Source: Bacteroides sp.
GTDB lineage: Bacteria > Bacteroidota > Bacteroidia > Bacteroidales > Bacteroidaceae
Direction: 5' to 3'
Assembly (NCBI GenBank): GCA_017621035.1
Contig: JAGATY010000022.1
Coordinates: forward strand, 1 to 64,000
DNA length: 64,000 nt
Shown here: piece by piece, positions 226 through 53,627 of the stretch
How the letters are laid out: each line of letters starts with the position of its first letter
How positions within the stretch are numbered: the first letter of the stretch is position 1
Position numbers and translations under genes: made by a program
Notes under the pieces: model-generated
Seen by the model: the letters and a program-made list of their open reading frames with translations, nothing else
Databases searched by the model: none
Told to the model about the DNA's origin: nothing

Positions 226-297
226 GTCTTCGTACAACCAAAAGGGTGTCTTCGTACAACGAAAGCACCCTTTTCGTACAACCAAGACACCCTGAAG
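226..297. repeat. 22-bp-pitch triple repeat, GTAC type (first copy)
   Basis: Three copies of TTCGTACAAC start at 229, 251 and 273, exactly 22 bp apart, separated by GGGTGTC or its complement. The middle unit is an odd palindrome (TTCGT, ACA, ACGAA) with flanking GGGTG and CACCC arms. It lies in the 249-bp gap before the HU-like gene. C/T-rich DNA precedes it. The array at 40089-40160 has the same pitch and the same GGGTGTC linker, but different palindrome arms. Confidence 0.8.
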
Positions 298-370
298 TTC
301 CAACCAATGTCAGGCGGCGGTCAGACAGCGGCTGCCCCGAGTGGAGGAATTGTGTATAAATTGATTTAAT

Positions 371-868
371 ATGATTTTCTGGAAACGTAAACTCAGAAAA
401 TTGAAGAATCTGTGGTATCCACAGTCAATCTTAGTTGGAAAGCCTGCCGACACGCAGGAAGTGGCCGAACGTATAGCAAACAGCTGTACGCTGACGCCTA
501 GTGATGTTCATGCCGTTATCCGTGCTTTGCCCGAGGTAATGGCAGAGTTGATGGCCGAAAGTCGCTCAGTTCACCTGGACGGCCTTGGATGTTTCTTCTA
601 CAGCATCCAAGCCAAAGGTACAGGAGTTGCTACCGAAGCCGAGGTCAGCAGCAGTCAGATAACCAGTGTCCGCGTGCAGTTCCTGCCCAGTCGTAAGCGA
701 CAAGGCACCGTCATCACCCGCAGTCTGGTGGGCGGTGTCTCATTCGCCGAGTGGTTGGGTAAGGATACTTCCACCGACACGAGCGGAAGCAGTGGCGGCT
801 CTGACACCGACAGCGGCACGGGCGACAACGGAAGCAGCGGTACCGATAATGAGTACCCCATGGAGTAA
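371..868 (+). CDS. HU-like DNA-binding protein
   Basis: A 165-residue protein of the Bacteroidetes HU-like (histone-like) family. Residues about 25-125 hold the fold, with AERIANSCTLTPSDVHAVIRALPEVM as helical dimer region and VHLDGLGCFFYSIQAKG as the conserved beta segment; these proteins bind DNA as dimers and often silence or organise it. The last 35 residues are a Ser/Gly/Asp/Thr-rich tail, as seen in several Bacteroides paralogs. It is a stand-alone gene between a transposase remnant and the convergent alaS, and it ends in a strong terminator. The family is clear; the particular role is unknown. Confidence 0.85.
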   Translation: MIFWKRKLRKLKNLWYPQSILVGKPADTQEVAERIANSCTLTPSDVHAVIRALPEVMAELMAESRSVHLDGLGCFFYSIQAKGTGVATEAEVSSSQITSVRVQFLPSRKRQGTVITRSLVGGVSFAEWLGKDTSTDTSGSSGGSDTDSGTGDNGSSGTDNEYPME

Positions 869-878
869 ACTCCTAACA

Positions 879-928
879 GCCCCTCAAGGCTCTCCGGAAC
901 TTCGGAGCCTTGAGGGGCTTCTTTTTTT
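879..928 (+). terminator. Terminator of the HU-like gene
   Basis: GCCCCTCAAGGCTC and GAGCCTTGAGGGGC form a long stem with further TCCG/CGGA pairing around a GAAC-type loop, followed by CTTCTTTTTTTCC. It starts 10 bases after the stop codon. Confidence 0.92.
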
Positions 929-983
929 CCTCGCCGATTGGACCTCGGCTGCCTCCGGTCAACGAGATGCAACCACCAAGGCA

Positions 984-1019
984 CAAAAAAAATTGCCCGC
1001 ACTTGGGATGCGAGCAATC
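984..1019 (-). terminator. Terminator of alaS
   Basis: Read on the minus strand, ATTGCTCGCA pairs with TGCGGGCAAT (one internal mismatch) around a 7-base loop, followed directly by eight T. It lies about 32 bases past the alaS stop codon. Confidence 0.85.
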
Positions 1020-1051
1020 TTTTGTCTATGATTATGTTCTGTCGAAGTCTG

Positions 1052-3667
1052 TTAGAGACCGGCCAGTTCCACCACTTTGTCGGTGGCTGCCAACAGTCCG
1101 TCGGGGTTCTTGCCACCGGCTGTAGCGAAGTGAGGTTGACCGCCGCCACCGCCTTGTATCAGCTTGGCTGCCTCTTTCACCAACACTCCGGCCTTCAAAC
1201 CTGTAGCCACGAGGTTGTCACTGAGCATTACTGTCAGCATCGGCTTGCTTTCGTGAACGGTTCCGGCTACAAAGAAGAGGTTCTCAACAATCTCTCCACG
1301 CAGTTGGAAGGCTATATTTTTCACCGTTTCTGCCGGAAGCGGAGCCACGAATTTAATCAACTTCACCCCGTTCACCTCTTTTACTTCGCTGAGTAAACGT
1401 TGTTTCAGTTGAGCCTCTTTTTCCTTCATAAACTCCTCCACCTGCTTTTTCAAACCGGCGTTTTCTTCAATGTACTTACGGATGGCACCCGACAAATCGG
1501 GGGCGTTGTTGAAGAGAGCCTTCAGTTCGCGTACAGTGTCCTGCATCATGTCTAACATCTCTTCCACTCGCTTGCCAGTATAAGCCTCGATACGACGTAC
1601 ACCGGCAGCCACCGAACTTTCGGACACAATCTTCACCATGCCGATATGTCCCGTAGCCGAAACGTGTGTGCCGCCACAGAATTCAATGGAGTTTCCGAAC
1701 TGGATGACACGAACACGGTCGCCATACTTCTCACCAAAGAGGGCGATGGCACCCAACTCTTTAGCCTCTTCGATAGGAATGTTGCGGTACTCCTTCAGAG
1801 GAATGTTGGCACGAATCTTGGCATTAACGATGTGTTCCACCTGACGAATCTCCTCATCGGTTACTTTCTGGAAGTGAGAGAAGTCGAAACGAAGCGACTC
1901 CGGCGACACGAGAGAACCCTTCTGTTCCACATGCTCGCCCAACACTTCGCGCAGTGCTGCGTCAATCAAGTGTGTACAAGAGTGGTTGGCAGCACAAGCG
2001 GCACGCTTCTCCACGTCTACACAAGCCATCATCGGCGCCTCGATGTGTTCGGGCAACTTCTTGGCAATGTGGATGGGAAGGTTGTTTTCCTTCTTGGTGT
2101 CGATAATATCAATGGTCTCGAATTCACTGACCAAAACACCGCTGTCTCCCACCTGTCCACCGCTTTCGGCGTAGAAAGGAGTCTTGTCCAGTACTATCTG
2201 GTAGAGGGTTTGATTCTTCTGTTTAATCTGGCGGTAACGAAGTACACTGGTTTCATATTCAGTGTAGTCGTAGCCAACAAACTCAGTAGTGCCCTCCTTC
2301 AGTGTAATCCAGTCACCGGTTTCCACGGCGGCGGCATTGCGGGCACGCTGTTTTTGCTGCTGCATCTCTGCTTCAAAGCCTTGGATATCAGCAGTCATGC
2401 CATTCTCGCGGAGGATAAGTTCGGTGAGGTCCAACGGGAATCCAAAGGTGTCATACAGTGTGAAGGCATCCTTTCCACCGATTTCCGACTTGCCTGCCGC
2501 CTTAGCATCGGCCATGGTTTTCTCCAACAGGCGGATGCCGGTTTCCAATGTACGCAAGAAGGCGTCTTCTTCTTCTTTGATTACCTTTGCAATCAACTCC
2601 TTCTGAGCATTCAACTCAGGGTAGGCTCCGCCCATGTTTTCGATGAGCACCGGCAGCAACTTGTACATGAAAGCTTGCTTCTGACCGAGGAACGTGTAAC
2701 CATAACGAACGGCTCGACGCAAGATGCGACGAATCACATAACCGGCTTTCGCGTTGCTGGGCAACTGACCGTCGGTGATGGAGAATGCAATGGTGCGCAC
2801 GTGGTCTGCAATCACTCGCATGGCGATGTCAGTCTTTTCGTCGGCACCATACTTCACGCCGGCCATCTCGCCAATGGCAGTAAGGATGGGCTGGAACACG
2901 TCTGTGTCGTAGTTAGAAGTCTTGTTCTGCATGGTGCGAACCAATCTCTCGAAGCCCATACCCGTATCAATCACCTTGGCCGGCAGTCCTTCCAGGGAGC
3001 CGTCTGCCTTACGATTGTACTGCATGAACACGAGGTTCCATATCTCAATTACTTGCGGATGGTCTTTATTTACCAACTGAGCGCCGGGAATCTTTGCTTT
3101 TTCCTCCTCCGAACGTGAGTCAATGTGGATTTCAGAGCAGGGACCACAGGGACCCGTGTCACCCATTTCCCAGAAGTTATCATGCTTGTTTCCGTTCAGA
3201 ATGTGGTCTTTCGGCAGGAACTGCTCCCAGTAAGAGGCAGCCTCATCATCGCGACCCAGCCCGTCTTCGGTGCTACCTTCAAACACGGTAGCGTAAAGAT
3301 TCTTGGGGTCAATCTTTAATACATCCACCAAGTACTCCCAAGCCCAGGATATGGCTTCCTTCTTGAAGTAGTCGCCAAATGACCAGTTTCCCAGCATTTC
3401 GAACATAGTATGATGGTATGTATCGTGTCCCACTTCCTCCAAATCGTTGTGCTTTCCGCTCACGCGCAAGCACTTTTGCGAGTCTGCCACACGTTTGAAC
3501 TTGGCGGGATGGTTGCCTAAAATAATATCCTTGAACTGATTCATACCCGCGTTGGTAAACATCAACGTGGGGTCGTCTTTGACTACCATCGGTGCCGAGG
3601 GCACAATCTGGTGGCCTTTGCTCTCGAAGAAACTCTTGAAAGAGTCTCTTATTTCATTTGCAGTCAT
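1052..3667 (-). CDS. alaS: Alanyl-tRNA synthetase
   Basis: The 871-residue protein charges tRNA-Ala with alanine in the cytoplasm. The length is full for the family. The class II catalytic domain starts the protein ([19 protein letters not shown], then [15 protein letters not shown]). The editing domain that removes mischarged serine has its zinc ligands at NHSCTH (near residue 560) and CGGTH (near 667). The C-Ala domain ends with [15 protein letters not shown]. It is a single-gene unit, with its own terminator and a minus-strand promoter in the divergent gap with the M23 peptidase. Confidence 0.98.
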
Positions 3668-3828: not shown

Positions 3829-3856
3829 TCGCATCGACAAGTGAAATTCTTCAAAC

Positions 3857-4934: not shown

Positions 4935-5084
4935 TGCACAAGATGCCATCTTGTGTTGCATAAGATGCCATCTTGTGCAGCATAAGTTGGCATCTTGTGC
5001 ATGGGAAGGTTTAAAGGGGGAAACGGAAAGGTGAAAAGGGAAAGGTGGAAAGGTTAAAAGGAAAAGGTGGAAAGGTTTAATGGA
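4935..5084. repeat. 22-bp-pitch element, CAAGATGCCATCTTG type, copy A1, with purine repeat
   Basis: Three palindromes of the form CACAAGATGCCATCTTGTG have their centre words at 4941, 4963 and 4985, exactly 22 bp apart. They run into a G/A-rich stretch that keeps the pitch: GGAAAGGT-like words at 5003, 5025, 5047 and 5069. The left flank (4830-4930) is C/T-rich. This fills the 390-bp gap between the M23 peptidase and the Sua5-type gene. Copies of the same palindrome are at 27760 and 53561. No gene is seen here. Confidence 0.88.
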
Positions 5085-5180
5085 GAACGGGAGGAGAAGC
5101 TGTGCGGAGGTCGGGAGCGGTTAGTGAGAGGCCTCCCGAGGTTAAATGAGCAATTGCTTGCATAGAAATGCAAAAAACAA

Positions 5181-8584: not shown

Positions 8585-9397
8585 TTACTTCAACAGGCTT
8601 TCGGGATCGAGGTGATCAGCTTCGATATCCTTGAAGTAACGATAAGTACCAACCTTCAACTCAGCAGTAGCAGCATCGTCACAAACGATGATTCCCTTTT
8701 CGTGCATTTGCAGAGCACTGATTGTCCACATCTGCATTACCGGGCCTTCAACAGCGTGATACAAAGCACGTGCCTTGTTGTGACCGTTAACGATAATCAT
8801 AACCTCACGAGCACTGAGTACTGTACCCACACCTACTGTCAATGATGTCTTGGGCACCTTGTTAACATCGTTGTCGAAGAAACGAGAGTTAGCAATGATA
8901 GTATCGGTTGTCAGTGTCTTTTGACGAGTGCGAGAAGTCAGTGACGAACCCGGCTCGTTAAAGGCGATGTGACCATCAGGACCGATTCCGCCCATGAAGA
9001 GGTCGATACCACCGTAAGACTTAATCTTCTCTTCATAACGTGCACACTCGGCTTCGAGGTCGGCAGCGTTACCATTTAAGATGTTGGTATTCTCAGGCTT
9101 GATATCAATGTGGCTAAAGAAGTTGTTCCACATGAATGAGTAATAGCTTTCGGGATGCTCTTTCGGCAGACCTACATACTCGTCCATGTTGAAGGTTACG
9201 ACATTCTGGAATGATACGAGTCCCTTCTTGTTTAGGTCAATCAGAGCTTTGTACATGCCCAGCGGTGACGAACCTGTAGGACATCCCAATACGAAAGGCT
9301 TCTCCGGAGTAGGGTTTGCAGCCTTGATTTTGGCAGCTACATAATGAGCGGCCCACTGTGATACGGATTGATAATCCGGTTGAATGATTACTCTCAT
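8585..9397 (-). CDS. nagB: Glucosamine-6-phosphate deaminase
   Basis: A 270-residue cytoplasmic enzyme that converts glucosamine 6-phosphate to fructose 6-phosphate and ammonia, joining amino-sugar breakdown to glycolysis. The length and residues match the family closely: Asp72 in NMDEYVG, and Asp141, His143 and Glu148 in [13 protein letters not shown]. The phosphate loop [15 protein letters not shown] is present. It stands alone here; an amino-sugar uptake operon (ROK kinase, carrier, SIS protein) lies 5 kb away and may serve the same pathway. Confidence 0.97.
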
Positions 9398-11759: not shown

Positions 11760-11933
11760 TTTATCTACCGATTCTCCTCCCCGCCCTGATTCCATCCCCT
11801 TTTCGTTTTCATCTTTCCCCTTTCCGCACCCAACCTTCTTCCTTCTCTGTTTTCCCCTTTTCCTTTTCAGCTCCTCCCCTTTCTTTTTTCCGTTCCTCAC
11901 CTTTCCCTTTTCCGTTTTCCGCTTCCTTCTCTC

Positions 11934-12183
11934 CTCATCCCCCTTCATTCCGTCACTCATCCTCACCCCTTCCAGGAGTGTTCCAGGGTCATATAACGAC
12001 TGATAAAAAGAAGAAAGGCTTTCTTATACTAAAAGAAAGGCTTTCTTTTGCCATAAGAAAGGCTTTCTTCTTTTAGTTAAAAGGCTTTCTTTTGTTCAAC
12101 AAAGGTAATTTGATGTCGGATAAGTGGTGAGATGAAGGGGGATGAGTGGGCAAAAAAGAGCGGATGAGAAGGGATAGGAATCG
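11934..12183. repeat. 22-bp-pitch element, AAAGGCTTT type, copy B1 (four palindromes)
   Basis: Three nested arrays share one pitch. Left: CTCATCC at 11934 and 11956. Centre: AAGAAAGGCTTTCTT palindromes with AAAGG at 12014, 12036, 12058 and 12080. Right: GGATGAG-like words at 12118, 12140 and 12162, the reverse complement of the left word. The C/T-rich DNA at 11760-11940 extends the left side; frames there encode only Lys/Arg/Glu-rich low-complexity peptide and I do not call a gene. The 677-bp gap lies between the divergent YhcC-family and sigma-factor genes. Confidence 0.88.
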
Positions 12184-17629: not shown

Positions 17630-17800
17630 CACTCATCCTCACCCCTTCCAGGAGTGTTCCTGGGTCATATAACGACTGATGAAAAGAAGAAAGGCTTTCT
17701 TCTTTCAGTTAAAAGGCTTTCTTCTATTCAACAAAGGTAATTTGATGGCGGATGAGTAGTGAAATGAGAAGAGATGAGGGGGCAACTGAAGTGGGATGAG
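17630..17800. repeat. 22-bp-pitch element, AAAGGCTTT type, copy B2 (two palindromes)
   Basis: The flanks match copy B1 nearly base for base: ACTCATCCTCACCCCTTCC, then GGGTCATATAACGACTGAT, and on the right TTCAACAAAGGTAATTTGAT. Only two AAAGGCTTT palindromes are present (17690 and 17712) where B1 has four. The right GGATGAG words are at 17750, 17772 (AGATGAG) and 17794. G/A-rich DNA without a gene runs on to about 17935. The rest of the 556-bp gap holds the operon terminator and the next promoter. Confidence 0.88.
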
Positions 17801-23958: not shown

Positions 23959-24045
23959 AGTGTGCAATTTTGAAGGCATCCCGCCATCCCCCTACCCACC
24001 CCTTATCACCTCCTTACCAACTCCATTACTCCTTCATCACACACT

Positions 24046-24128
24046 CGGTACTGCTTCGATATACATTCGGTAAAGTACTGATATTCCAAGGATATAGCAT
24101 ATAAATATCGAAGCAATACCGAATGTAT
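24046..24128. repeat. Inverted-repeat element with TGCTTCGATAT arms, copy E1
   Basis: TGCTTCGATAT (24052) and ATATCGAAGCA (24106) are complementary arms about 55 bp apart; overlapping arms ATACATTCGGTA and TACCGAATGTAT pair too. CGGTA recurs at 24046 and 24068, again 22 bp. The left flank (23965-24040) is C/T-rich and the right flank (24128-24190) G/A-rich. A related element is at 48747. This fills the 417-bp gap between the MmeI-like gene end and fabI; a short frame at 24026-24265 is judged spurious. Confidence 0.75.
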
Positions 24129-24284: not shown

Positions 24285-27059
24285 TCAACCTCCTATCAGT
24301 TGTTTGTAGCGTGTAAGCAGATGGCGCACAATTTCTGTCTCGCTGCTATCCGGCCTCAACCCGTAGAGTTTTAGTACTGCACAGTCCAGATTTTTGTGGG
24401 CACGACGTAGAGCAGGCGGCATGTAGCGGGGGTCGTAGAGGTCGGCAAGACAGTCACCTTTAGCCTCTTGTGCAGCACGAATATTGAGAATCTCCTGCAT
24501 CAGTTCCGCGATTTGTTGTTGCGAGCCATCTGTTTGTGGCCATGGGAAGCTATTGTAAACGATTTCTTTAGAATAGCGATAGCGCATCTCTAACCTTCCA
24601 CATGTCTCACGCATCCAAGCCATGTGCGCACTGCTACTCAATATTCCTAAATGATACACTGTGGCGTTGGGTATGGTTTGCACCTGATTGGTACACACCG
24701 TGTCTCCATGAAAGAATGCCATGGGTATGTACTCCCGTCGCTCACCCGATACGGCAGGGATGGCTATATAGTTGTCGGGATTCTTTGTATCACGGAAAGT
24801 CATAGGCCGCTCCGCCAATTTCTGAGAAGCTTTATCTTTCATAGCCAACCTATTCAAGCGGCACTGTTCCACACGAGCCAGTACCTTGGGGTATTTCTTT
24901 ACTTCAGAAATAGGAGTATCTACCAGCCAAAGAGCATAACGCATCTTATTGTAAAGCACCTCCTTGCCTCCGATGAGTCGTTTTATCAAGTGCGGGCAAT
25001 TCTCAAAATCTTTCAACTCTTCAGGTTCTATTTTTAGTGCTCCTCCATCAAGAGGAACGTTACCATTATCCATTTCAGGCGCATCACACAGAGGTTTGGT
25101 ACGTGGAGGCACATAGATGTCGGGGCGGTCTTTCAGATAACCATTGATGTTACTGCACGCTGTTGCTACCCCATCTGTATAGATATACTTGCATTTACGG
25201 CTCTTATTCCCGAATCCAATGATGACACAGTACACCGCAGCAGTATCTTCTGTCTCGCTTTCCCAAATGAAAGTGGTATGTGCAAAGTTTATCTTCACCG
25301 GCAGGTTCATCCACAAGGCATGCGTCTGTTCACCTTGTGTAATGCTGTTGGTTGAGACGAAAGCACACTCTATATCAGTCCCTTGTATATAGTCTGCTGT
25401 TTTCTTGTACCAGCAAGCCACATAGTCAATATCTTTATAGGTAAAGATTTCTGCAATCTCTTTCTTCTGCTCCGGAGTTTGATAAGCGCGTCCTGCAAAC
25501 GGTGGATTTCCAACAATATAGCTCAGTTCTCTCGGCTTTACGATGTCGTTCCAGTCTGTACGTAAGGCATTGGCGTTGTGAATGTGTGTCTGACGGGTAA
25601 GGGGCAGGAAATCATCCTCAAGGGTAATCATGTGATTAGTTTCATCACGCATTTGGTTTTCGGCAATCCACATAGCTGTTTTGCCCACATTCACGGCAAA
25701 GTCATTTATTTCTATGCCGTAGAACTGTTCTATACTTACCTTGACGGGGTTTCGCAACTCACCCAGCATGGTTTGCCCATGGTAAAGCATACGTATCACT
25801 TGATTTTCCAACCGCCGCAAAGAGAGGAACGTTTCAGTAAGGAAGTTACCGCTACCACAAGCCGGATCTAGCACACGAATGGAGGCAAGTTTCTGTTGAT
25901 AGGCCTCCAACTTGCGGGCACGAGAAGGGGTATCGGGAAGCGTCATGAGTGCGTTCAGTTCTTCTGTAAGGTCATCAAGGAACAGAGGACCGATGAGTTT
26001 ATGGATGTTCTCTACCGAGGTATAGTGCATTCCACCCTTGCGACGTTCCTGAGGGTTCAGTGTATTCTCAAACAAAGCGCCGAAAATGGTAGGAGAAATC
26101 TCACTCCAGTTGAATCCGTAGCTGGCCTTCTCCAGTAGCAAGGTTCGTAGCTCGTCAGTAAACATCGGTATCTCAATAGGATGCTCCACTTCGCTAAACA
26201 GACCGCCATTCACATAAGGAAAGTCCAGCAGTTCCGGGCGTTCAAACTTGCTTCGTCTCTCTTCCGGAGTGTCCAGGATACGAAACAGGCGGATGAGTGC
26301 ATCGCGCAGGTCGGCTGCAGCATACAGGGAGAGATAATCATGGAACATGTCTTTTTTCTTCTTAAACACATTCGCATCCTCGGCATAGAGGCAGAACACT
26401 AAGCGTACGCAAAGTACATTGAGTGAACGCAAGTCTGCTTCGGTGGGAGTGTCGCCATATTGCAACAAGAGTTTGTCGTACAGTTCACCTACCAATTTGC
26501 CGGCCTTTACGCTTACTTGTTCTTCACTCTGTACATGGGAGCTTTCTGCATCTACAAGAAATTGCAGGCGATGCAGTTCACTAGGAAGATTCTCCAGCAG
26601 TACTACTTCCGGAGGGTCATTCGGGTGCTCCATGTCATGGATATGAAACTCGCGGAAGTTACACACCACTATCCACTTAGGGTGTTCGCTTACGGGCAGC
26701 CCCAGCACATAACGGTGAGCTTGCTGAAAGGGTGTAAGCTTCTCCTTCAAGCCGCTCTGCTTGTCGGGCTTAGTGAGATCTACATGACTTCCCTTCTGCT
26801 CTATCATGACTCGGGTAGCAGGAATACGCCCGTCCACGAAGCGCTTACTCTCTTCCACTTTTAGTGAATCCTCGAAGCTGATGAGTTCTTCAGGCATGGC
26901 AATGCCGTAGCAGTCGCGTAACAAGGCCATCCAGAACGGTTCGGCCTGCCCCTTTTCATAGCCTCTATTGCTCCAACGATGCACAAAGTCAGCAGCCTTT
27001 TTCTTTTGTTCTATGTGTTTCGCCCTTTTGGGCAGTTCATAGATTAGAGATTTAGCCAT
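24285..27059 (-). CDS. MmeI-like type IIL restriction-modification enzyme
   Basis: A 924-residue single-chain enzyme, close to MmeI in length and order. MmeI relatives cut DNA about 20 bp from their site and methylate adenine on one strand for protection. The nuclease domain has Asp76 and Glu87-x-Lys89 (VMIEQKG). A helical spacer follows. The methylase core has motif I DPACGSGNF (near 395) and motif IV NPPF (near 515), the adenine-type form used by MmeI. The target-recognition domain and a C-terminal helical domain (SFPWPQ to end) complete it. It stands alone, with no separate specificity subunit, and is preceded by a folded leader. Recognition sequence cannot be deduced by eye. Confidence 0.92.
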   Translation of the reverse strand: MAKSLIYELPKRAKHIEQKKKAADFVHRWSNRGYEKGQAEPFWMALLRDCYGIAMPEELISFEDSLKVEESKRFVDGRIPATRVMIEQKGSHVDLTKPDKQSGLKEKLTPFQQAHRYVLGLPVSEHPKWIVVCNFREFHIHDMEHPNDPPEVVLLENLPSELHRLQFLVDAESSHVQSEEQVSVKAGKLVGELYDKLLLQYGDTPTEADLRSLNVLCVRLVFCLYAEDANVFKKKKDMFHDYLSLYAAADLRDALIRLFRILDTPEERRSKFERPELLDFPYVNGGLFSEVEHPIEIPMFTDELRTLLLEKASYGFNWSEISPTIFGALFENTLNPQERRKGGMHYTSVENIHKLIGPLFLDDLTEELNALMTLPDTPSRARKLEAYQQKLASIRVLDPACGSGNFLTETFLSLRRLENQVIRMLYHGQTMLGELRNPVKVSIEQFYGIEINDFAVNVGKTAMWIAENQMRDETNHMITLEDDFLPLTRQTHIHNANALRTDWNDIVKPRELSYIVGNPPFAGRAYQTPEQKKEIAEIFTYKDIDYVACWYKKTADYIQGTDIECAFVSTNSITQGEQTHALWMNLPVKINFAHTTFIWESETEDTAAVYCVIIGFGNKSRKCKYIYTDGVATACSNINGYLKDRPDIYVPPRTKPLCDAPEMDNGNVPLDGGALKIEPEELKDFENCPHLIKRLIGGKEVLYNKMRYALWLVDTPISEVKKYPKVLARVEQCRLNRLAMKDKASQKLAERPMTFRDTKNPDNYIAIPAVSGERREYIPMAFFHGDTVCTNQVQTIPNATVYHLGILSSSAHMAWMRETCGRLEMRYRYSKEIVYNSFPWPQTDGSQQQIAELMQEILNIRAAQEAKGDCLADLYDPRYMPPALRRAHKNLDCAVLKLYGLRPDSSETEIVRHLLTRYKQLIGG

Positions 27060-27289: not shown

Positions 27290-27443
27290 AATGCTATGTT
27301 AATAATCTTATAAACAGTTCCGCTTGCCGCTGCAGGCGGATACGGGGCAAAGTTAAAGGTTTTATTGATATGGTAAGCACCGGAGGGGAATTATTCTTAA
27401 AAATAACTGAATTCGGCAGATGGTTTGAAAGAGCGGTGCCGTA

Positions 27444-27646
27444 GGTACTATAGTAACCGCGGGCTTTTAAGCCCATGGTAGTGATATCTTTACACTTCTT
27501 GCGTCTGTAAAGACGCGGTCTGTAAGACTACTATAGCCTCCGGCCCCGTCTTCCAGACGGATGGATAGGAATCGAGTACCCTATCCACGGACTTGAAAGT
27601 CCGCGGTTATTGAAAGTGTCCTTACCACCTGGTCTTTCAGACCATC
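27444..27646. repeat. Array of five short hairpins at about 42-bp spacing
   Basis: Perfect small palindromes: GGGCTTTTAAGCCC (27461), GCGTCTGTAAAGACGC (27501), CCGTCTTCCAGACGG (27546), CGGACTTGAAAGTCCG (27588) and TGGTCTTTCAGACCA (27630). Centres are 41-44 bp apart, about twice 21-22. Between them sit weaker ones such as GGATAGG/CCTATCC centred at 27574. The arms differ but CTT..AAG or TCT..AGA cores recur. A CCCCCTC/GAGGGGG hairpin follows at 27670-27695. No gene is seen in 27290-27926. Confidence 0.75.
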
Positions 27647-27759
27647 TACCGGACTGACTTTAAAAATACCCCCTCTTGCACAGGTTGGGAGGGGGAAGTT
27701 TACTGCTTGCGAACAGCTGGCAGACTTATTCCGGCGAGGCGGCACATTAGAAGGGAGAA

Positions 27760-27826
27760 TGCACAAGATGGCATCTTGTGTTGCATAAGATGGCATCTTG
27801 TGCAGCATAAGATGCCAACTTGTGCA
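27760..27826. repeat. 22-bp-pitch element, CAAGATGGCATCTTG type, copy A2
   Basis: Three palindromic units with AGATG at 27766, 27788 and 27810, exactly 22 bp apart. The third unit carries CCAACTTG in place of CCATCTTG. ACATTAGAA precedes it as in copy A1. G/A-rich DNA follows to about 27890. Confidence 0.88.
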
Positions 27827-40088: not shown

Positions 40089-40160
40089 TCGTACTACCTC
40101 GAGGGTGTCGAGGTACTATCTCGAGGGTGTCAAGGTACTACCTCGAGGGCGTCTTGGTTG
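40089..40160. repeat. 22-bp-pitch triple repeat, GTAC type (second copy)
   Basis: GTAC is at 40091, 40113 and 40135, exactly 22 bp apart, in units such as GAGGTACTATCTC joined by GAGGGTGTC. The palindrome arms (GAGGTA/TACCTC) differ from those at 226-297 (TTCGT/ACGAA), but the pitch, the GTAC core and the GGGTGTC linker are the same. It lies in the 561-bp gap between tatA and a divergent phosphatase gene. Confidence 0.85.
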
Positions 40161-40230: not shown

Positions 40231-40300
40231 TGAAGGTCGCCGAGGGTCGGGTCGAAGGTCGCCGAGGGTCAGGCCTTAGGTCGCCGAGGGTCACCCCGAG
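40231..40300. repeat. 22-bp-pitch triple repeat, GGTCGCCGAGGGTC type
   Basis: GGTCGCCGAGGGTC occurs at 40235, 40257 and 40279, exactly 22 bp apart. It is not clearly palindromic. It lies 75 bp right of the GTAC array in the same gap. Confidence 0.88.
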
Positions 40301-41304: not shown

Positions 41305-43044
41305 ATGGAATTTGTACCCGACACCCGCAATCAGGAGTTTCAAGATGCCTTGAACCTCATCAAATATACCCGCCAATCACTCTTCTTGACGGGAAAAGCC
41401 GGCACGGGCAAATCAACCTTCCTGCGCTATATATGCCAACACGTGAAGAAGAAGCATGTAGTATTGGCACCCACAGGTATAGCGGCCATCAATGCAGGTG
41501 GTAGCACACTGCACAGCTTCTTCAAACTTCCGTTCCACCCTCTTCTGCCGGACGACCCCAATCTGAGCCTCCAAAAGGGGCGCATCCACGACTTCTTCAA
41601 GTACTCTAAACCACACAGGAAGCTGCTGGAGGAGATTCAATTGGTCATCATCGACGAGATTTCCATGGTTCGTGCCGACATCATCGATGCAGTGGATCGC
41701 ATACTTCGGGTCTACTCTCACAATCTTCGGGAACCTTTCGGTGGGAAGCAGCTACTGCTGGTGGGCGACATCTTCCAGCTGGAGCCGGTAGTGAAGGGTG
41801 ACGAGCGTGAGATACTGAACCGTTTCTATCCCACTCCCTACTTCTTCTCCGCCCGAGTCTTCAGTCAGATAGACCTGGTGTCGGTGGAGCTTCAGAAGGT
41901 CTATCGGCAGAGCGATGAGCGATTCATCGGGGTGCTGGATCGTATCCGCAACAACACGGCATCGGCTCCCGACCTGCAACTGCTCAACAGCAGGTATGGT
42001 GCCGCTCCGACCGACGAGGCCGATATGTACATCACTCTGGCTACCAAGCGCGACACAGTAGACCACATCAATGAGAAGAAACTGGCAGAACTGCCGGGCG
42101 AAGCGGCCACCTTCTGGGGACTGATAGAGGGTGACTTCCCCGAGAGCAGCCTGCCAACCCCGCTGGAACTCACCTTGAAGGCCGGAGCACAAGTCATCTT
42201 TATCAAGAACGACTTCGACAAGAGGTGGGTAAATGGCACCATCGGCACCGTAACAGGCTATGATCCGGTTGAGGAGACCATCTACGTGCTGACGGAAGAT
42301 GGCAAGGAGTGTGACGTAAAACCGGAGCTTTGGCGTAACATCCGCTACACCTATAATGAGGAGAAAAAGGAGGTGGAGGAGGAGGTTCTGGGTACCTTCA
42401 AGCAGTTCCCCATCCGGTTGGCGTGGGCCATCACGGTACACAAGAGCCAAGGGTTGACCTTCAGCCGCGTGGTCATCGACTTCTCGGGAGGCGTCTTTGC
42501 CGGTGGCCAGGCCTATGTGGCACTGAGCCGCTGCACCTCGTTGGAAGGTATTCGGTTGAAAAAGAACATCAACAGGGCCGATATCTTCGTGCGTCCCGAA
42601 ATAGTGAGCTTTGCCGAAAGGTTCAACAACCGACAGGCCATAGACCGTGCCCTGAAGCAGGCACAAGCAGACGTGCTCTATCATAGTGCCGTAGAAGCCT
42701 TTGACAAGGGCGATTTCGATGCCTTCCTCGGCGACTTCTTCAAGGCCATTCACTCCCGTTATGACATAGAGAAGCCCAACGTGAAACGCCTCATCCGCCG
42801 CAAGTTAAACATCATCAATCGCCTCCGCGAGGAGAACAAGGCGCTGAAAGAGGCTGCTCGCGAGAAGGAGAAAGCACTGCTGAAGTATGCCCGCGAATAC
42901 ATCATCATGGGAGACGAGTGCCTCAAGCACAACATGAAAGAGGCGGCCATGAGGAACTATGAGAAGGCCGTCACCCTATGTCCCAAGTTCAAGGAGGCGT
43001 GGAAGAAGATTCAAAAGCTGGAAAAAGAAATGCTCAACCGCTGA
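41305..43044 (+). CDS. Pif1-like AAA helicase with C-terminal TPR segment
   Basis: A 579-residue superfamily 1 helicase of the Pif1/RecD-like group. Walker A is GKAGTGKST (30-38), motif Ia LAPTGIAAINAGGSTLHSFF, Walker B VIIDEISMVRADI, and VHKSQGLTF with YVALSRCTSLEG the late motifs. The last 70 residues form a helical, TPR-like segment (YIIMGDECLKHNMKEAAMRNYEKAV). Pif1 helicases unwind G-quadruplexes and stalled forks; the role here is inferred. It is in an operon with the Cof-type phosphatase. Confidence 0.9.
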   Translation: MEFVPDTRNQEFQDALNLIKYTRQSLFLTGKAGTGKSTFLRYICQHVKKKHVVLAPTGIAAINAGGSTLHSFFKLPFHPLLPDDPNLSLQKGRIHDFFKYSKPHRKLLEEIQLVIIDEISMVRADIIDAVDRILRVYSHNLREPFGGKQLLLVGDIFQLEPVVKGDEREILNRFYPTPYFFSARVFSQIDLVSVELQKVYRQSDERFIGVLDRIRNNTASAPDLQLLNSRYGAAPTDEADMYITLATKRDTVDHINEKKLAELPGEAATFWGLIEGDFPESSLPTPLELTLKAGAQVIFIKNDFDKRWVNGTIGTVTGYDPVEETIYVLTEDGKECDVKPELWRNIRYTYNEEKKEVEEEVLGTFKQFPIRLAWAITVHKSQGLTFSRVVIDFSGGVFAGGQAYVALSRCTSLEGIRLKKNINRADIFVRPEIVSFAERFNNRQAIDRALKQAQADVLYHSAVEAFDKGDFDAFLGDFFKAIHSRYDIEKPNVKRLIRRKLNIINRLREENKALKEAAREKEKALLKYAREYIIMGDECLKHNMKEAAMRNYEKAVTLCPKFKEAWKKIQKLEKEMLNR

Positions 43045-45186: not shown

Positions 45187-45194
45187 CTCCCCGT

Positions 45195-48100
45195 ATGGAG
45201 AATGAAGTACAGGCATATTACGAAGAGCTGACCACCCTCTGCCAGACCGAGGAGCTGCCTCTGTTGGCTGCCTACCGTCGGTTGCGCGAACTGCTGGAGC
45301 GTATCTGTCGCACTCAGATGGAGGGTAGTCAGTTACAGATGACCGACCTCTCGGCACGCATCAACTACGTGGCTGTGAAGGGGAACCTCTCCGTAGCCGA
45401 GCAGAACCGCCTCCACACCTTTCGTCTGACCTGCAACCACGTGCTCAACCATCGCACCCAACCCAACCGAGAGCAGCTGCTGCGCGATGCTAAGTCTATT
45501 GCCTTCTGCATCAAGAAACTGTTCGGTATGGAGATTCCCGAAGCGCTGTACCGACTGCTGCCACGTGCCGATGCCACCTACCAGGTAGCCCCTCCTGCCC
45601 AAGAACGGGTGAAGAGAATGCGGGTATGCTATCTGCATGCCGACGACAACTTCCTCTATGTGCAACCTACCGAACGCATTGGCGAGGAGCCGCTGCGGGT
45701 AAGATACAACGTGCCGCAAGTGAATGAGGAGTTCTCTGCCACCTGTCAACTGTTGTGGCACCACGCACAGCTGAACCTACTGGACGTGGACATCGACGCG
45801 AAGGGCTTCCTCACCCCCTCTTTCATCATACTGGAACCCGACTATCTGGTAGACATCAGCTCACTGGCAGAGTGCTTTAAAGAGTACGGAAGCCACCCGT
45901 TGAACTACACTTTCGCCCGCCTACAACCGTCGGGAAACACCCGTGCCCTGCTACTAGGTAACATAGCCAACCTATTTTTAGACGAGTGGATTCATGCCAA
46001 AGAGGAGGAACCTACCTACCTGGAGTGCATGAAGAAGGCTTTCCGACAGTATGCACTTGAGTTGGCCGCCTGCCCTGACCTGCGCGACCGCGAGCTGGAG
46101 AAACAATTCTTTGCCGACTGCCATCTGCACTTTGAGAACATCAGGCAGACCGTACAGAAGACTTTCCAAGCATCCGGCTACTGTCTAGACCGCACAGATG
46201 CGGTGCTGGAGCCCTCCTACATCTGTGAAGCCTTGGGACTGCAAGGGCGTCTGGACTACATGCAGCGTGACCTGGAGTCCTTCATAGAGATGAAATCAGG
46301 CAAAGCTGACGAGTACTCCTTCCGAGGAAAGATAGAGCCGAAAGAGAATAATAAGGTGCAGATGCTACTCTATCAAGCCGTGCTGGAATACAATATGGGA
46401 CGCGACCACCGGCACGTACACGCCTACCTCTTCTACACTCGCTACCCCCTACTCTATCCGGCTCGCAGTTCCTGGGCCATGGTCAGGCGGGTAATGGATG
46501 TGCGGAACCGCATCGTGGCCGGCGAGTACGGCATCCAACTGCACAACTCACCCAGCTTCACTGCCAGCCAACTGGCTGCCATCACACCGGAAAGCCTCAA
46601 CGAACGCGGGCTGAACAATGTGTTGTGGAAACGCTATCTTGCCCCTGCCATCGGGCAATGGGGAGAGCAGTTGCAAGCCCTCTCACCTCTGGAGCGGGAC
46701 TATTTTCACACCTTATACAACTTCATCACCAAAGAACTCTACACCTCCAAGTCGGGAGATATGGAGTATGAGGGACGCAAAGGGGCAGCCTCACTCTGGC
46801 TGGATTCACTGGAGGAGAAGCTGGACTCGGGAGCTATCCTGACCGACTTGCAGATAACCGAACACCAAGCCGCCGACCTGCAGCAGCCTCACCTCTGCCT
46901 ATGCCGCAAGCAGGAAGAACAGCCTGCCCCCGAATGTCGCCGCCTGCCCGACTTCAGAACCGGCGATGCCATCGTCCTCTATCAGCGAAACACGCCCGAA
47001 GACAACGTCACCAACAAGTTGGTTTTCAAAGGAAGCATTGAGCAGATCAGTGAGGAAGCCATCCGCATCCGTCTGCGTGCCCCTCAGAGAAACAGAGCCG
47101 TGCTCCCCATGGAGAGCCTCTACGCCATTGAACACGAGGCCACGATGGAGACCTCCTTCAGAAGTATGTACCAAGGACTCTCAGCCTTTCTGCAAGCAAC
47201 CGAGCGCCGACGCAGTCTGTTGCTCTGCAGACGGGAACCGGAATTTGACCCGCAATACCTCCCTGCCATCGACGCAACCGAGGATGACTTCCAACGCATC
47301 ACCCTCAAAGCACAAGCAGCTCGCGACTACTTCCTGCTGGTAGGCCCTCCCGGCACCGGAAAGACCTCACGCGCCTTGCGGAGCATGGTGGAGGCTTTTC
47401 TGAAAGAGGGCAAACAACTGCTGCTGCTCTCCTACACCAACCGTGCCGTAGACGAAATCTGTAAGACACTGACAGCCATTGCTCCCGCCGTAGACTTCAT
47501 ACGCATGGGAAGTGAATTGGCATGCGAAACCTGTTACCGCCCCTACCTGATGGAGAGCGTTCTGGCTGCCTGCAACAACCGGAGAGAAGTGCAAGAGCGC
47601 ATCAACCGCTGCCCTATATTTGTCGGCACCGTCTCTACCCTCTCTTCCCGACAAGACCTGTTCCGACTGAAGCAGTTTGATGTAGCCATTGTTGACGAGG
47701 CCACGCAAATACTGGAGCCTCAACTGCTCGGGCTCTTCTGCCTCCGCACTCCGGAGGAAACTGATGCCATCGGCAAATTTATCCTGATTGGAGACCACAA
47801 GCAACTGCCCGCAGTGGTGTTGCAAGCCGCTGCCCAGTCGGAAGTAACCGGTGAGGAGTTGCGCAGCATCGGACTGCTGAACCTGAAGGATTCACTGTTT
47901 GAACGGCTCTATCGCCGGCAACTGCAACAGGCATCCGGAGGCAATGCCTCCACCCTTGCCTCTCGCTCGTTCGACATGCTCTGCCGGCAAGGACGCATGA
48001 ATCCGGCCGTGGCCGACTTCCCCAACCGAGCTTTCTACAACAACCGCCTGCGCTCCATCGGACTGCCTCACCAGCAAGGTGAGCTGCTCTTGGCCAATGG

Positions 48101-48617
48101 ACTGGAAGCAGACGAGTTCAATAAACTGCTGACTCAACGCATTGCTTTCCTCCCCTCACAACCGGAATCGGCTGCAGGCAGCATCAAGCAGAACCACTCA
48201 GAAGCCGAAGTCGCCGTCCGACTGGCCACTGCCCTCTACCATCAGTACCGCCGGAGTGAAGGGTTTGACCCTCTACGCACCCTGGGTATCATCACCCCCT
48301 ACCGCAGTCAGATAGCCCTCATCCGGAGCAAGCTGGAGCAATGTGGCATAGAAGAGTTGGCAGCCATCACTGTAGACACCGTGGAACGCTATCAGGGAAG
48401 CGAGCGCGACGTCATCATCTACTCCTTCTGCGTCAACCAAACCTACCAGCTGAAGCAACTGTCTAACCTTACTGAAGAGAACGGAGTGCAGATAGACCGC
48501 AAACTGAACGTGGCCCTGACCCGCGCACGCAAACAACTCTTCCTGACCGGTGTACCCGGACTGTTGCAACTCAACCCCATCTACAAGGCGCTCTTGGAGA
48601 GTCTCCAACAACTGTAA
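45195..48617 (+). CDS. Dna2-like nuclease-helicase
   Basis: A 1140-residue protein. An N-terminal half of unclear fold leads to a PD-(D/E)XK nuclease of Cas4/Dna2 type near residues 345-420: GRLDY (350) and FIEMKSGK (367) supply the Asp and Glu-x-Lys. The C-terminal half is a superfamily 1B helicase like Dna2 or Upf1: Walker A VGPPGTGKTS near 716-724, Walker B VAIVDEATQ near 832, RQGRMNP, and ERYQGSERDVIIYSF, then VALTRARKQL. Such enzymes trim and unwind DNA ends in repair. No cysteine set for an iron-sulfur cluster is plain. The leader is about 3 bases from the promoter, so translation may be near leaderless. Confidence 0.88.
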   Translation: MENEVQAYYEELTTLCQTEELPLLAAYRRLRELLERICRTQMEGSQLQMTDLSARINYVAVKGNLSVAEQNRLHTFRLTCNHVLNHRTQPNREQLLRDAKSIAFCIKKLFGMEIPEALYRLLPRADATYQVAPPAQERVKRMRVCYLHADDNFLYVQPTERIGEEPLRVRYNVPQVNEEFSATCQLLWHHAQLNLLDVDIDAKGFLTPSFIILEPDYLVDISSLAECFKEYGSHPLNYTFARLQPSGNTRALLLGNIANLFLDEWIHAKEEEPTYLECMKKAFRQYALELAACPDLRDRELEKQFFADCHLHFENIRQTVQKTFQASGYCLDRTDAVLEPSYICEALGLQGRLDYMQRDLESFIEMKSGKADEYSFRGKIEPKENNKVQMLLYQAVLEYNMGRDHRHVHAYLFYTRYPLLYPARSSWAMVRRVMDVRNRIVAGEYGIQLHNSPSFTASQLAAITPESLNERGLNNVLWKRYLAPAIGQWGEQLQALSPLERDYFHTLYNFITKELYTSKSGDMEYEGRKGAASLWLDSLEEKLDSGAILTDLQITEHQAADLQQPHLCLCRKQEEQPAPECRRLPDFRTGDAIVLYQRNTPEDNVTNKLVFKGSIEQISEEAIRIRLRAPQRNRAVLPMESLYAIEHEATMETSFRSMYQGLSAFLQATERRRSLLLCRREPEFDPQYLPAIDATEDDFQRITLKAQAARDYFLLVGPPGTGKTSRALRSMVEAFLKEGKQLLLLSYTNRAVDEICKTLTAIAPAVDFIRMGSELACETCYRPYLMESVLAACNNRREVQERINRCPIFVGTVSTLSSRQDLFRLKQFDVAIVDEATQILEPQLLGLFCLRTPEETDAIGKFILIGDHKQLPAVVLQAAAQSEVTGEELRSIGLLNLKDSLFERLYRRQLQQASGGNASTLASRSFDMLCRQGRMNPAVADFPNRAFYNNRLRSIGLPHQQGELLLANGLEADEFNKLLTQRIAFLPSQPESAAGSIKQNHSEAEVAVRLATALYHQYRRSEGFDPLRTLGIITPYRSQIALIRSKLEQCGIEELAAITVDTVERYQGSERDVIIYSFCVNQTYQLKQLSNLTEENGVQIDRKLNVALTRARKQLFLTGVPGLLQLNPIYKALLESLQQL

Positions 48618-48624: not shown

Positions 48625-48700
48625 GCAAGTCCCCTCTCTACTTCAACCAATCCCCCTCTTTACTTCAGGCAAGCTCCCTCTCTACTTCCCCATCTTACCA
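48625..48700. repeat. 22-bp-pitch triple repeat, CTCTCTACTTC type
   Basis: TACTTC recurs at 48639, 48661 and 48683, exactly 22 bp apart, within units like CCCTCTCTACTTCA. It is the C/T-rich left part of a 498-bp gap that contains three repeat arrays and no gene. Confidence 0.85.
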
Positions 48701-48820: not shown

Positions 48821-48855
48821 AAAGATATAAAAAGGGTATAACGGGGTTGGTAGGG

Positions 48856-48988
48856 GGTTAGTAGGAGGTTGGTGGCGGGTTAGTAACGCGAGGTATGTTG
48901 GTTGATGATGTGGGGTATACGGGTTGATGATGTGGGGTATGCGGGTTAGTAACAGCAGGGTGGTGGGTTAGAATTCGGGGGATGCAGG
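48856..48988. repeat. 22-bp-pitch array of six GGGTTAGTA/GGGTTGATG units
   Basis: GTTA or GTTG begins at 48857, 48879, 48901, 48923, 48945 and 48967: six units in strict 22-bp steps. The two central units (GGTTGATGATGTGGGGTAT) are nearly identical, the outer ones have decayed. The G-rich strand is the plus strand. Confidence 0.9.
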
Positions 48989-50075: not shown

Positions 50076-50076
50076 T

Positions 50077-51129: not shown

Positions 51130-51150
51130 ACATCTATCCCTCATCCGACT

Positions 51151-51793: not shown

Positions 51794-51886
51794 CCCGTTT
51801 TTACCTACATGTAGGGATTCTGCCGCAGCAATTATACCTAATTCATGCGATTGCAGGGAAGTGAGAAACCCCGTATCTTTGCATCG

Positions 51887-51991
51887 TCAGATTTAAATGA
51901 ATGAATTAGTTAGTCATAATTACGTAATCTCTTTTATTCAATAAAAGAATATCCGCCCCCCGATGAGAGATCGAGGGGCGGAACTTTTTTT
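51887..51991 (+). ncRNA. Candidate small RNA of about 105 nt
   Basis: A promoter (ATTG at 51850, 20 bases, TATCTTTG at 51874-51881) and a strong terminator (CCGCCCC.CGAT, 5-base loop, ATCG.GGGGCGG, then seven T, 51953-51991) enclose about 105 bases with no reading frame of note. CTTTTATT/AATAAAAG at 51931-51947 forms an inner hairpin. The terminator would also end the SPFH operon, so the short transcript is a prediction. Confidence 0.6.
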
Positions 51992-52037
51992 AAGCATGAA
52001 CATTACTTGTATAAGAAACATTCCTTATATTTGCAGC

Positions 52038-52220
52038 ATGAGAAAAGAATTTGGTAAATGGTTAATGGATATAGCCAAGTATATGACGACGGCACTGTTG
52101 CTGTCATCTGTTTTTGGAGACATGGAGAATCCTTGGATCATGGGAACAGTCATCGGTGGAGCAATACTGACTTTGTTATCCGGCCTATGGCTTGTAAAAG
52201 ATAAAAAAGTAGAAAATTAA
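52038..52220 (+). CDS. 60-residue membrane protein (DUF6722-like)
   Basis: MRKEFGKWLMDIAKYMTTALLLSSVF opens a protein with two membrane helices (about 15-28 and 35-52) and a Lys-rich end. It resembles the short DUF6722 proteins of Bacteroides; the name is from memory. A TATATTTG box at 52026-52033 lies only 4 bases before the ATG, so the transcript is nearly leaderless or the start is later. A 33-residue frame follows 16 bases on. Confidence 0.75.
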   Translation: MRKEFGKWLMDIAKYMTTALLLSSVFGDMENPWIMGTVIGGAILTLLSGLWLVKDKKVEN

Positions 52221-52236
52221 GAAAGGAGGTTTATAT

Positions 52237-52338
52237 ATGGGAGCTATCGTTTCATCTGTTTTTGTTTCTGTTGTAGCCATTGTAGGGGTCATCTATTTCT
52301 ACCTGGAGGACAAGAAGAATGCGAGACAAACCAAATAA
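52237..52338 (+). CDS. 33-residue single-helix membrane protein
   Basis: A tiny frame, MGAIVSSVFVSVVAIVGVIY then FYLEDKKNARQTK and a stop at 52336. It has one membrane helix and a charged tail. A strong Shine-Dalgarno run AAAGGAGG lies 7 bases before the ATG, which is uncommon in Bacteroides and supports translation. It follows the 60-residue gene by 16 bases and precedes a terminator. Function unknown. Confidence 0.7.
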   Translation: MGAIVSSVFVSVVAIVGVIYFYLEDKKNARQTK

Positions 52339-52346
52339 GAGAAAAG

Positions 52347-52383
52347 AAAGGAGGGCAATCTAAACGGTTGTCCTCCTTTTTTC
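52347..52383. terminator. Two-way terminator
   Basis: AAAGGAGGGCAA pairs with TTGTCCTCCTTT (one mismatch), 10-base loop, then T-run. It lies between the tiny membrane genes and the convergent regulator gene. Confidence 0.85.
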
Positions 52384-52384
52384 T

Positions 52385-53347
52385 CTAATACTTCACCTCC
52401 TCCAAAGAGACCAGTTTGTTTACGATGGCGTAGATGGTGAGGCCGGCCGGGGAGTGAATCTGCAGCTTGCGGGCTATGTTGCGCCGGTGAGTAATAACGG
52501 TATGGATGGAGAGGAAGAGTTGTTCGGCAATCGCTTTATTGGTCATTCCCTTCACTACACAGGTTATAATCTCCTTTTCCCGTTGACTCAAGGCCTCCGG
52601 TTCGTCACCCTTATCACTGTTTTCTTTGCTATCGGGACGCAAGAAGCCTTGTTGAAGTTGCTGTTCCAAGTGCTCCACGGCAGGCACAAACATGTAATCC
52701 TCCACCTGGCAGTGGGTGGCTAAGTCCTGTTCACAGTTGAAGATGTCGAACAGCACACTGTTCAGCAGGTTGTTGTTCTCTTTACCGGGGTAGTACTTTA
52801 TGATGATGTTCTTCAGCTCCGTCAGCTTACTCTCCACCTGGCTGTGCTTGCTGGCAAAGGTGGCGATGTCATAGCCCGAGGGGCGATGTCCTTGCAACAG
52901 TTGCTCCACATAGGTAAAAACGGAGCGGTTCTCATACTCCATATGGCGACGAACCTCTTTGGCATACTCGTCGAAGAACTTCAGAATGAGGGTGGCCACT
53001 TCGTCGGAGCCGGAACAGTCGATAGTCTCTATCAGCTTCCTACGCAGTGCGGGGAGGTTGAAGTCCAGGAAATAGACATGGGCACGCTTCAAGTAATCCA
53101 TCAGTGCAGGCAGTGCAAAGTCGGTCGGCAAGCACTCTCCTTTGACGTGATGCTCTTTGCTCAGGAAGTTGGCAACCGCCAAAAAGGTGCGGCAGTCCAC
53201 ACCCTGCGCCTGGCAAACCTCTTTCACACTCTTGTCGCCAAAGCCTAACGAGAGGCCGAAACGACTCATCACCATCAGCAGCGAATAGTTGCTGTTAATC
53301 AAATCTATAAGTTTGTCATCCTCGCGGTATTTAACCTGTCTTTCCAT
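52385..53347 (-). CDS. Ric/hemerythrin sensor fused to LuxR-type DNA-binding domain
   Basis: A 320-residue regulator. The N-terminal part (about 25-65, SVKEVCQAQGVDCRTFLAVANFL) resembles the cysteine-bearing start of Ric/ScdA iron-sulfur repair proteins. The middle (about 95-235) looks like a hemerythrin fold, with candidate ligands in RRHMEYENRS, ASKHSQVESK and THCQVEDYMFVPAVEH. The C-terminus (SQREKEIITCVVKGMTNKAIAEQLFLS) is a LuxR helix-turn-helix. A role in sensing oxygen, nitric oxide or iron damage is inferred. Start is the ATG at 53347, which begins MERQVKYREDDKLIDL. Confidence 0.82.
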   Translation of the reverse strand: MERQVKYREDDKLIDLINSNYSLLMVMSRFGLSLGFGDKSVKEVCQAQGVDCRTFLAVANFLSKEHHVKGECLPTDFALPALMDYLKRAHVYFLDFNLPALRRKLIETIDCSGSDEVATLILKFFDEYAKEVRRHMEYENRSVFTYVEQLLQGHRPSGYDIATFASKHSQVESKLTELKNIIIKYYPGKENNNLLNSVLFDIFNCEQDLATHCQVEDYMFVPAVEHLEQQLQQGFLRPDSKENSDKGDEPEALSQREKEIITCVVKGMTNKAIAEQLFLSIHTVITHRRNIARKLQIHSPAGLTIYAIVNKLVSLEEVKY

Positions 53348-53560
53348 CCTATATCTGCTATTTATTGTTTCGCTATATCTGATGCAAAGTAAGCGTTTTT
53401 CCCGTAAACCCGCAACCCTACTCTGCCGATATTCTTCTTTGTATCTGCAGAAATCTTTCCCTGTTTCCAACAACTGCCACATACAAACGGTTCACCCGTT
53501 GCACTGCTTCCGGCCACCCCGCACATTAAGACCTCTCACCCTCCGCACACATACCTAATC

Positions 53561-53627
53561 TGCACAAGATGCCAACTTGTGTTGCACAAGATGCCATCTT
53601 GTGCAGCATAAGATGCCATCTTGTGCA
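53561..53627. repeat. 22-bp-pitch element, CAAGATGCCATCTTG type, copy A3
   Basis: Three palindromic units with AGATG at 53567, 53589 and 53611, exactly 22 bp apart. The first unit has CCAACTTG. C/T-rich DNA precedes. The 512-bp gap lies between the divergent regulator and Ntn-hydrolase genes; it also has an ATCAGTG/CACTGAT hairpin at about 53659-53676 and no gene. Confidence 0.88.

Follow-up and report, generated by a model that had tools for sequence, protein, structure and literature searches.

Why should intergenic arrays of short repeats that differ in sequence be laid out at one and the same pitch of 22 bp? The question is raised by a stretch of 64,000 nucleotides from Bacteroides sp. 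(assembly GCA_017621035.1, contig JAGATY010000022.1, positions 1 to 64,000 of the forward strand), hereafter the window, in which an original prediction made from the letters alone had listed at least ten such arrays. The assembly (genome G000; the window is contig C48) comprises 2.64 Mb in 93 contigs and is 91% complete, and MurF-Alr of the window has its best named matches in Bacteroides species (B. fluxus, 80% identity; B. gallinarum, 79%). We find that the arrays sit between genes, that the pitch is common to many families with differing sequences, and that 22 bp is firmly a sharp mode. We propose that these are 22-bp minisatellites residing in dispersed intergenic elements, that two miniature inverted-repeat transposable elements (MITEs) bearing one of the families, family A, were likely moved by an insertion sequence (IS), and that the pitch likely reflects a constraint to one face of the helix. 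This joint explanation we regard as about evenly poised between right and wrong.

Every listed position was read and all arrays step by 22 bp, and for most of the arrays Tandem Repeats Finder, applied independently, also returned period 22. With a run defined as at least 18 of 22 matches at a given lag, the intergenic DNA of the window contains 12 runs at lag 22 and none at 21 or 23, and its match frequency at lag 22 is 0.338, where the median for lags 5-60 is 0.264; the coding DNA of the window has no run at any lag from 5 to 79. In 1.60 Mb of the genome, lag 22 gives the highest number of intergenic runs (101), next to 4 at lag 20, 5 at 23 and 76 at 21. Runs of 7-bp periodicity were left in the counts for the window and for this sample; strong ones were excluded from the counts for a 1.90-Mb sample, for the named relatives and for both family clusterings described below. 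After this removal the 1.90 Mb, which were aimed partly at family A copies and therefore over-represent that family, the 1.60-Mb sample being less targeted, yield 109 runs at lag 22, 18 at 21, 8 at 23 and 4 each at 20 and 24. Eighty loci of named relatives (1.56 Mb) show 37 runs at lag 22, 10 at 23, 6 at 21, 4 at 20 and 2 at 24, with no lag-22 run in coding DNA. A crude open reading frame mask placed 25 (1.60 Mb) and 32 (1.90 Mb) lag-22 runs inside open reading frames, of which kind a codon-based gene caller left just 2 as coding in this genome. The predicted confinement of the lag-22 peak to intergenic DNA is upheld by the intergenic/coding comparison in the window, the genome sample and the relatives, and the excess is present genome-wide. 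As for a spread of periods over 18-26 bp, which the original prediction had named as the contrary outcome, neighbouring lags are low in this genome after heptamer removal, but the relatives show 20-24 bp, and the exactness of the pitch is weaker there.

Two trivial origins of this signal were considered. A heptamer effect was rejected, as 60 of the 76 lag-21 runs in the 1.60-Mb sample are heptamer-like and the lag-22 excess survives the exclusion of such runs. AT-rich heptamer-like arrays (TAAATCG/TAAATTG) are in themselves common between genes (e.g., L111 5637-5757 and L097 6427-6509), and some of them show lag 22 (7+7+8) instead of 21. Chance or an assembly artefact, for which the division into 93 contigs might be invoked, can practically be dismissed: lag 22 exceeds the neighbouring lags in the window, the genome sample and the 80 named loci, and 100 kb of E. 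coli K-12 contained no array.

The features of the window to which the following paragraphs refer are:
1-141, minus strand: end of a multicopy IS whose terminal repeat is ACGTGAGTTCGGTATAAG; the outer end lies at 141, and the contig begins within the IS.
229-293, plus strand: family F array (TTTTCGTACAACNAAA), three units, pitch 22 (positions read; Tandem Repeats Finder).
4935-5001, plus strand: family A array, three near-palindromic units, pitch 22.
5006-5089, plus strand: purine-rich outward flank units, pitch 22, of the family A element at 4935.
11797-11917, unstranded: weaker pyrimidine-rich array, pitch 22.
12011-12094, plus strand: family G array (AAGAAAGGCTTTCTT), four units, pitch 22.
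17687-17724, plus strand: another copy of the family G element, two units.
24027-24072, unstranded: two-unit repeat, period 22 (Tandem Repeats Finder).
27398-27404, unstranded: left target-site duplication TAAAAAT of a 256-bp MITE.
27405-27660, unstranded: the 256-bp MITE, with ends AACTGAATTCGGCAGATGG and AAGTCAGTCCGGTAGATGG and no 22-bp array detected.
27661-27667, unstranded: right target-site duplication TAAAAAT of the 256-bp MITE.
27760-27826, plus strand: family A array, three units, pitch 22; an operon ending in murF-alr lies about 100 bp downstream.
40091-40153, plus strand: family H array, three hairpin-like units around ACCTCGAGGGTGTCAAGGT, pitch 22.
40232-40293, plus strand: family B array (GGTCGCCGAGGGTC), three units, pitch 22.
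48626-48688, unstranded: TACTTC array, three units, pitch 22.
48841-48973, unstranded: GTTA/GTTG array, pitch 22, its first part with an 11-bp sub-period.
53561-53627, plus strand: family A array, three units, pitch 22.

The arrays at about 5006-5089, 11797-11917 and 24027-24072 come in addition to those listed originally. Rfam returned no match within the window at gathering scores. Among the neighbouring genes, one for an MmeI-type restriction-methylation enzyme (24285-27059) adjoins the 256-bp MITE and a family A array, and those for a PIF1-like helicase (41305-43044) and a large AAA_11/AAA_12 helicase (45194-48617) lie near four arrays.

How many independent families share the pitch? Clustering by shared words sorted the arrays in the 1.90 Mb into 102 families, with a primitive pitch of 22 bp in 36, 11 in 9, 21 in 6 and 23 in 4; the ranges 24-31, 32-34 and 41-44 hold 4, 5 and 18 families in total, and 35-40 is empty. 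Family totals vary with the clustering, and a coarser one places 26 of 43 families at 22 bp. Runs containing N were excluded from both, and seven short loci from the window's own genome and eight low-scoring family A motif matches were also set aside. In the named relatives, 22 of 54 families have a pitch of 22 bp, 8 of 23, 4 of 21, 3 of 20 and 2 of 24, and no family falls at 25-37. In line with the claim that unit sequences are unrelated between most loci, many families share one pitch; the three AGATG arrays, however, are copies of a single family, so that the listed arrays represent fewer independent families. Families B, C, D, E, F and K form elements of about 3-6 units in which conservation drops outward, family K having a pitch of 21 bp. 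Families have a narrow range, with A in 3, B in 3 and C in 1 of 41 genomes. A two-unit TTTCCGTGCACGAAA array recurs at roughly one position in six loci of Bacteroides (L049 22018, L053 21930, L057 21870, L058 21867, L063 21795 and L065 21781), indicating that some arrays persist across species. Units are on average more palindromic than their shuffles (5.3 vs 3.6 in the relatives, 4.2 vs 3.4 in this genome), a property that is not universal. A second band consists of 41-43 bp units (L138 14658, L102 9377, L104 16657), some of them built from a pair of hairpins, each about 21 bp long, in alternation. Phasing of hairpins independent of their sequence was dropped as a candidate, as dissimilar hairpins give no peak at 22; the peaks at 33 and 55 are taken to follow from alternating dyads.

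Family A (AGATG), of which the genome sample contains 38 copies, offers the most detailed view of the pitch. Its core consists of three near-palindromic units spanning 67 bp, and 37 of the 38 copies fit the 67-bp consensus ungapped, with 59-66 identical positions each and 176 substitutions in total; the remaining copy has two units. All 66 neighbour spacings equal 22 bp. The core belongs to a larger element with mirror symmetry: on both sides it is flanked by mirror images at 22-bp pitch, whose conservation decays outward and whose outward consensus is near GGTTCTAATGYGGAGG. When 22 offsets were tried for each flank unit, the best one was 0 in 69 of 74, 59 of 73, 58 of 70, 39 of 67, 26 of 60 and 14 of 48 cases for units 0 to 5 outward (the two-unit copy was left out of this register test). 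Diverged flank units thus keep their register.

This observation bears directly on the main rival, that the pitch is inherited by descent. Here, a few old 22-bp minisatellites would have drifted in sequence, while slippage and gene conversion moved whole units, and no selection on register would be needed. Such a history is possible, though we would not bet on it. It is in line with families A and K keeping a pitch of their own (22 and 21 bp), with changes in length by whole units, with the outward decay of conservation, and with pitches of 21 and 23 bp, which resemble one-step changes from 22. It accounts less readily for diverged family A flank units that remain in register, for the existence of 11-bp families, and for the pattern of substitutions and gaps. 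In 3323 paralogous alignments, mismatch is barely lower inside arrays than outside (0.127 vs 0.165), yet gaps per mismatch fall about fivefold, from 0.0634 to 0.0117, a contrast to be read with the reservation that the array zones had been delimited on a single member of each pair, lowering the gap count by an estimated twofold or so at most, and that pairs are not independent. The in-register family A flanks do not depend on the choice of array zones. Within arrays, indels are few for the number of substitutions.

The number of units, in contrast to the pitch, varies between copies by whole units. The second family G copy of the window (17687) is shorter than the first (12011) by exactly 44 bp, or two units, and gaps of 11, 22 and 44 bp occur 3, 2 and 1 times within arrays. 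One mechanism making 22-bp duplications, as the original prediction had put forward, fits these gains and losses of whole units and the two-unit family A copy, but families spread as dispersed elements, and hence many copies were not made in place. Turnover is also visible at a single position. The gap that precedes the operon ending in murF-alr has a comparable counterpart in 73 of the 80 named loci, 62 of them with the same one-gene operon start. It contains a run of at least 17 of 20 matches at lag 21-23 in 11 of the 73 and at another tested lag (16 or 26) in 2, and measures at most 130 bp in 31. The arrays in this gap look unrelated in sequence, except for those of L059 and L061, both B. 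pyogenes. In B. faecis (L063, about 8600-9040), an array-bearing insert of about 430-450 bp stands before the murF operon, and close relatives are without it.

How, then, do the arrays spread? In the closest pair of family A copies, near-identity extends over some 15 blocks of 22 bp and breaks off sharply at both sides. Two copies are complete MITEs with ends ACGTCAGTTCG, at L187 2603-2978 (376 bp) and L108 1680-2053 (374 bp); among 45 end pairs examined, both have perfect 7/7-bp target duplications, TAACCTT and TAAGTCA. In a screen of 892 places, four passed, namely these two MITEs and two array-free elements. The latter are short (L199 14599-14766 and L152 4797-4985), with CTTAA/TTTAA..TTCGC-like ends and flanking duplications of 8 or 7 bp, and possibly represent another MITE family. 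The terminal motif is also present near 3 family J and 2 family C arrays. The 256-bp MITE of the window, which adjoins a family A array, has related ends and a 7-bp duplication, but as these ends match at 8 of the first 12 bases it stayed under the threshold of the screen; it is 93% identical over 262 bp to L159 1213-1474, where no target duplication was seen.

A likely source of transposase lies close at hand. An IS with ends ACGTGAGTTCGGTATAA was met at 12 sampled places, one being window 1-141, nearly all at contig ends, and at least 11 contigs start or stop about 120-140 bp inside it (the starts of C48, C57, C61, C75, C82, C90 and others), so that the assembly breaks mark IS copies. No complete copy was seen in this genome; the transposase fragment beside an IS end on contig C86 belongs to PF13612 (E 1.7e-61). 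Related complete IS in same-genus genomes measure 1033 bp (G007) and 1048 bp (G020), each with a 7-bp duplication. The ends of the resident IS (ACGTGAGTTCGGTATAAG) are similar to those of the family A MITEs, and because both the ends and the duplication length match, the PF13612 IS likely mobilises these MITEs in trans. Of 41 genomes, 5 have a PF13612 match at E < 1e-60, and these include all 3 that hold family A; this co-occurrence has a hypergeometric probability of about 0.001, to be tempered by a cut chosen afterwards, by a value of about 0.02 when all 12 of the 41 genomes matching at E <= 0.001 are counted, and by relatedness, which was not controlled. PF13586 gave one match.

It is very unlikely that the arrays are repetitive extragenic palindromic (REP) sequences or bacterial interspersed mosaic elements (BIMEs), that is, dispersed intergenic near-palindromes, often clustered, moved by a Y1 transposase (REP-associated tyrosine transposase, RAYT). 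Many units can fold as hairpins and average palindromy exceeds that of shuffles, yet palindromy is not universal among units, and two family A copies show inverted-repeat ends like those of a DDE-type IS together with 7-bp duplications. PF01797 has no match in the 91% complete G000, whereas it is present in 12 of 25 genomes searched; with no Y1 transposase found in this genome, a REP/RAYT origin was dropped. The fixed two-turn pitch sets the arrays further apart from REP/BIME sequences.

The gene context of family A argues against a regulatory reading. Its 38 copies lie in 10 convergent, 8 divergent, 9 and 7 tandem gaps and 4 at edges, next to a background of 110 convergent, 151 divergent, 210 and 206 tandem gaps; convergent gaps are somewhat over-represented, and the median distance from gene starts is 248 bp. 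Given this mixed context, a promoter or terminator role was dropped. Operator arrays for transcription factors, either direct repeats of hybrid two-component system (HTCS) regulators of AraC type or palindromic Crp-like sites, would offer a familiar spacing, as a 2013 study of B. thetaiotaomicron reports HTCS direct repeats whose centres lie 21 bp apart on average, along with a palindromic motif of 22 bp (PMC3878776). We nevertheless judge them improbable: operators should lie upstream of regulated genes, whereas family A is found in convergent, divergent and tandem gaps alike, and 38 copies in one species contrast with presence in 3 of 41 genomes. CRISPR arrays, in which identical repeats of about 30 bp are parted by unique spacers, were also rejected; family B has about 14 conserved and 8 recurring bases per 22-bp unit and mostly 3 units.

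In the joint explanation that we prefer, the arrays would ride within dispersed intergenic elements, some family A copies being carried in MITEs that the PF13612 IS may mobilise in trans, and unit number would shift by whole units. The two-turn pitch would be kept since a putative assembly bound to the DNA recognises sites that share one helical face, with selection presumably acting on helical register. The protein in question would be a cooperative DNA binder, either a host nucleoid protein or a transposase. An assembly that needs sites on one helix face had been suggested in the original prediction and is consistent with the shortage of indels, the in-register units and, in this genome only, the clustering of pitches, although the binder remains putative; the mobile-element context had been overlooked there. 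Pitches in this genome cluster near 11, 22, 33 and 42 bp, and a Rayleigh test without the 20-24 band gives R 0.51 near 10.8 bp (p 5e-7), which makes quantisation of the pitch in helical turns a lead. A bolder version, which strikes us as rather unlikely, would be a spacing rule free of sequence (11, 22, about 33 and about 42 bp), set by a sequence-tolerant nucleoid protein or transposition complex that polymerises on one face. Such a complex would be widely present and select against out-of-register insertions, and mobile arrays would act as portable docking strips.

Several observations weigh against the joint explanation. Families with pitches of 20, 21, 23 and 24 bp exist, so 22 bp is a sharp mode and not the sole pitch. 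With the 20-24 band left out, a period of 7.9 scores slightly above 10.8 in this genome, and in the named loci the Rayleigh test near 10.5-11 is not significant outside that band. Hairpins of dissimilar sequence are without 22-bp phasing. Small indels do occur, single bases making up 130 of the 170 gap openings inside arrays. An intact end pair with duplication was found in only 2 of the 38 family A copies, and array families besides A gave no combination of ends and duplication among the 892 places, of which 4 passed; marks of transposition are therefore shown for family A only. Two of the four related IS loci examined, in G005 and G024, are without a duplication. Finally, two same-genus genomes have no arrays in the 100 kb examined of each, and a third has two in 60 kb (one at 22 and one at 23 bp); arrays are thus not required everywhere.

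The nearest known relative in kind is BrickBuilt of Porphyromonas gingivalis, a species of the same order. It is a 23-nt intergenic minisatellite within a MITE, present in 19 copies, whose short inverted ends are shared with resident IS elements; its unit number ranges from 1 to 22.8, leader and tail are non-repetitive, indels amount to 0-6%, and stem loops are predicted (PMC4596501). The present arrays are intergenic, variable in unit number and, for two family A copies, MITE-borne; their units measure 22 nt. Unlike BrickBuilt, which is one sequence family, they comprise tens of families of different sequence at one pitch; indels are rare compared with substitutions, and the usual family A copy consists of 3 core units between mirror flanks that keep the register. 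BrickBuilt has GAGACCTTTGCA-type ends, whereas the family A MITE ends (ACGTCAGTTCG) match ISPg3 and MITE239 of the same species, whose terminal repeats are given in Table 2 as ACGTCAGTTCGA and ACGTGAGTTCGATATAAAGGAA, respectively (PMC4596501), and are nearly those of the family A MITEs and the resident IS. Elements of the MITE239/700 type seem, from that text, to be without mini- or microsatellites, in contrast to the array-bearing family A MITEs. The units of P. gingivalis MITE464 measure 41 nt, and 41-, 23- and 22-nt repeats were noted earlier in strain W83, as quoted in the same source (PMC4596501). No report of 22-bp arrays in Bacteroides was found in the literature searched, subscription papers being outside its reach.

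Helix-phased repeats of about 22 bp are also known as protein-binding sites in iterons and in the TnsB and MuA site arrays. Those belong to individual replicons or to the ends of transposons, and the protein that binds them is known, whereas the binder of the present arrays is putative. The unit lengths of minisatellites are generally regarded as arbitrary; here, one pitch is arrived at by tens of unlike families, both in this species and across many of its relatives, and is lost less readily than the sequence itself. The multicopy IS and its MITEs are likely a source of intergenic turnover in gut Bacteroides. If descent accounts for the pitch, a mobile minisatellite can hold the length of its units even as their sequence is replaced. 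If helical register is what is maintained, these genomes would host a DNA-bound assembly that is invisible to motif searches, and the spacing itself would become its readout.

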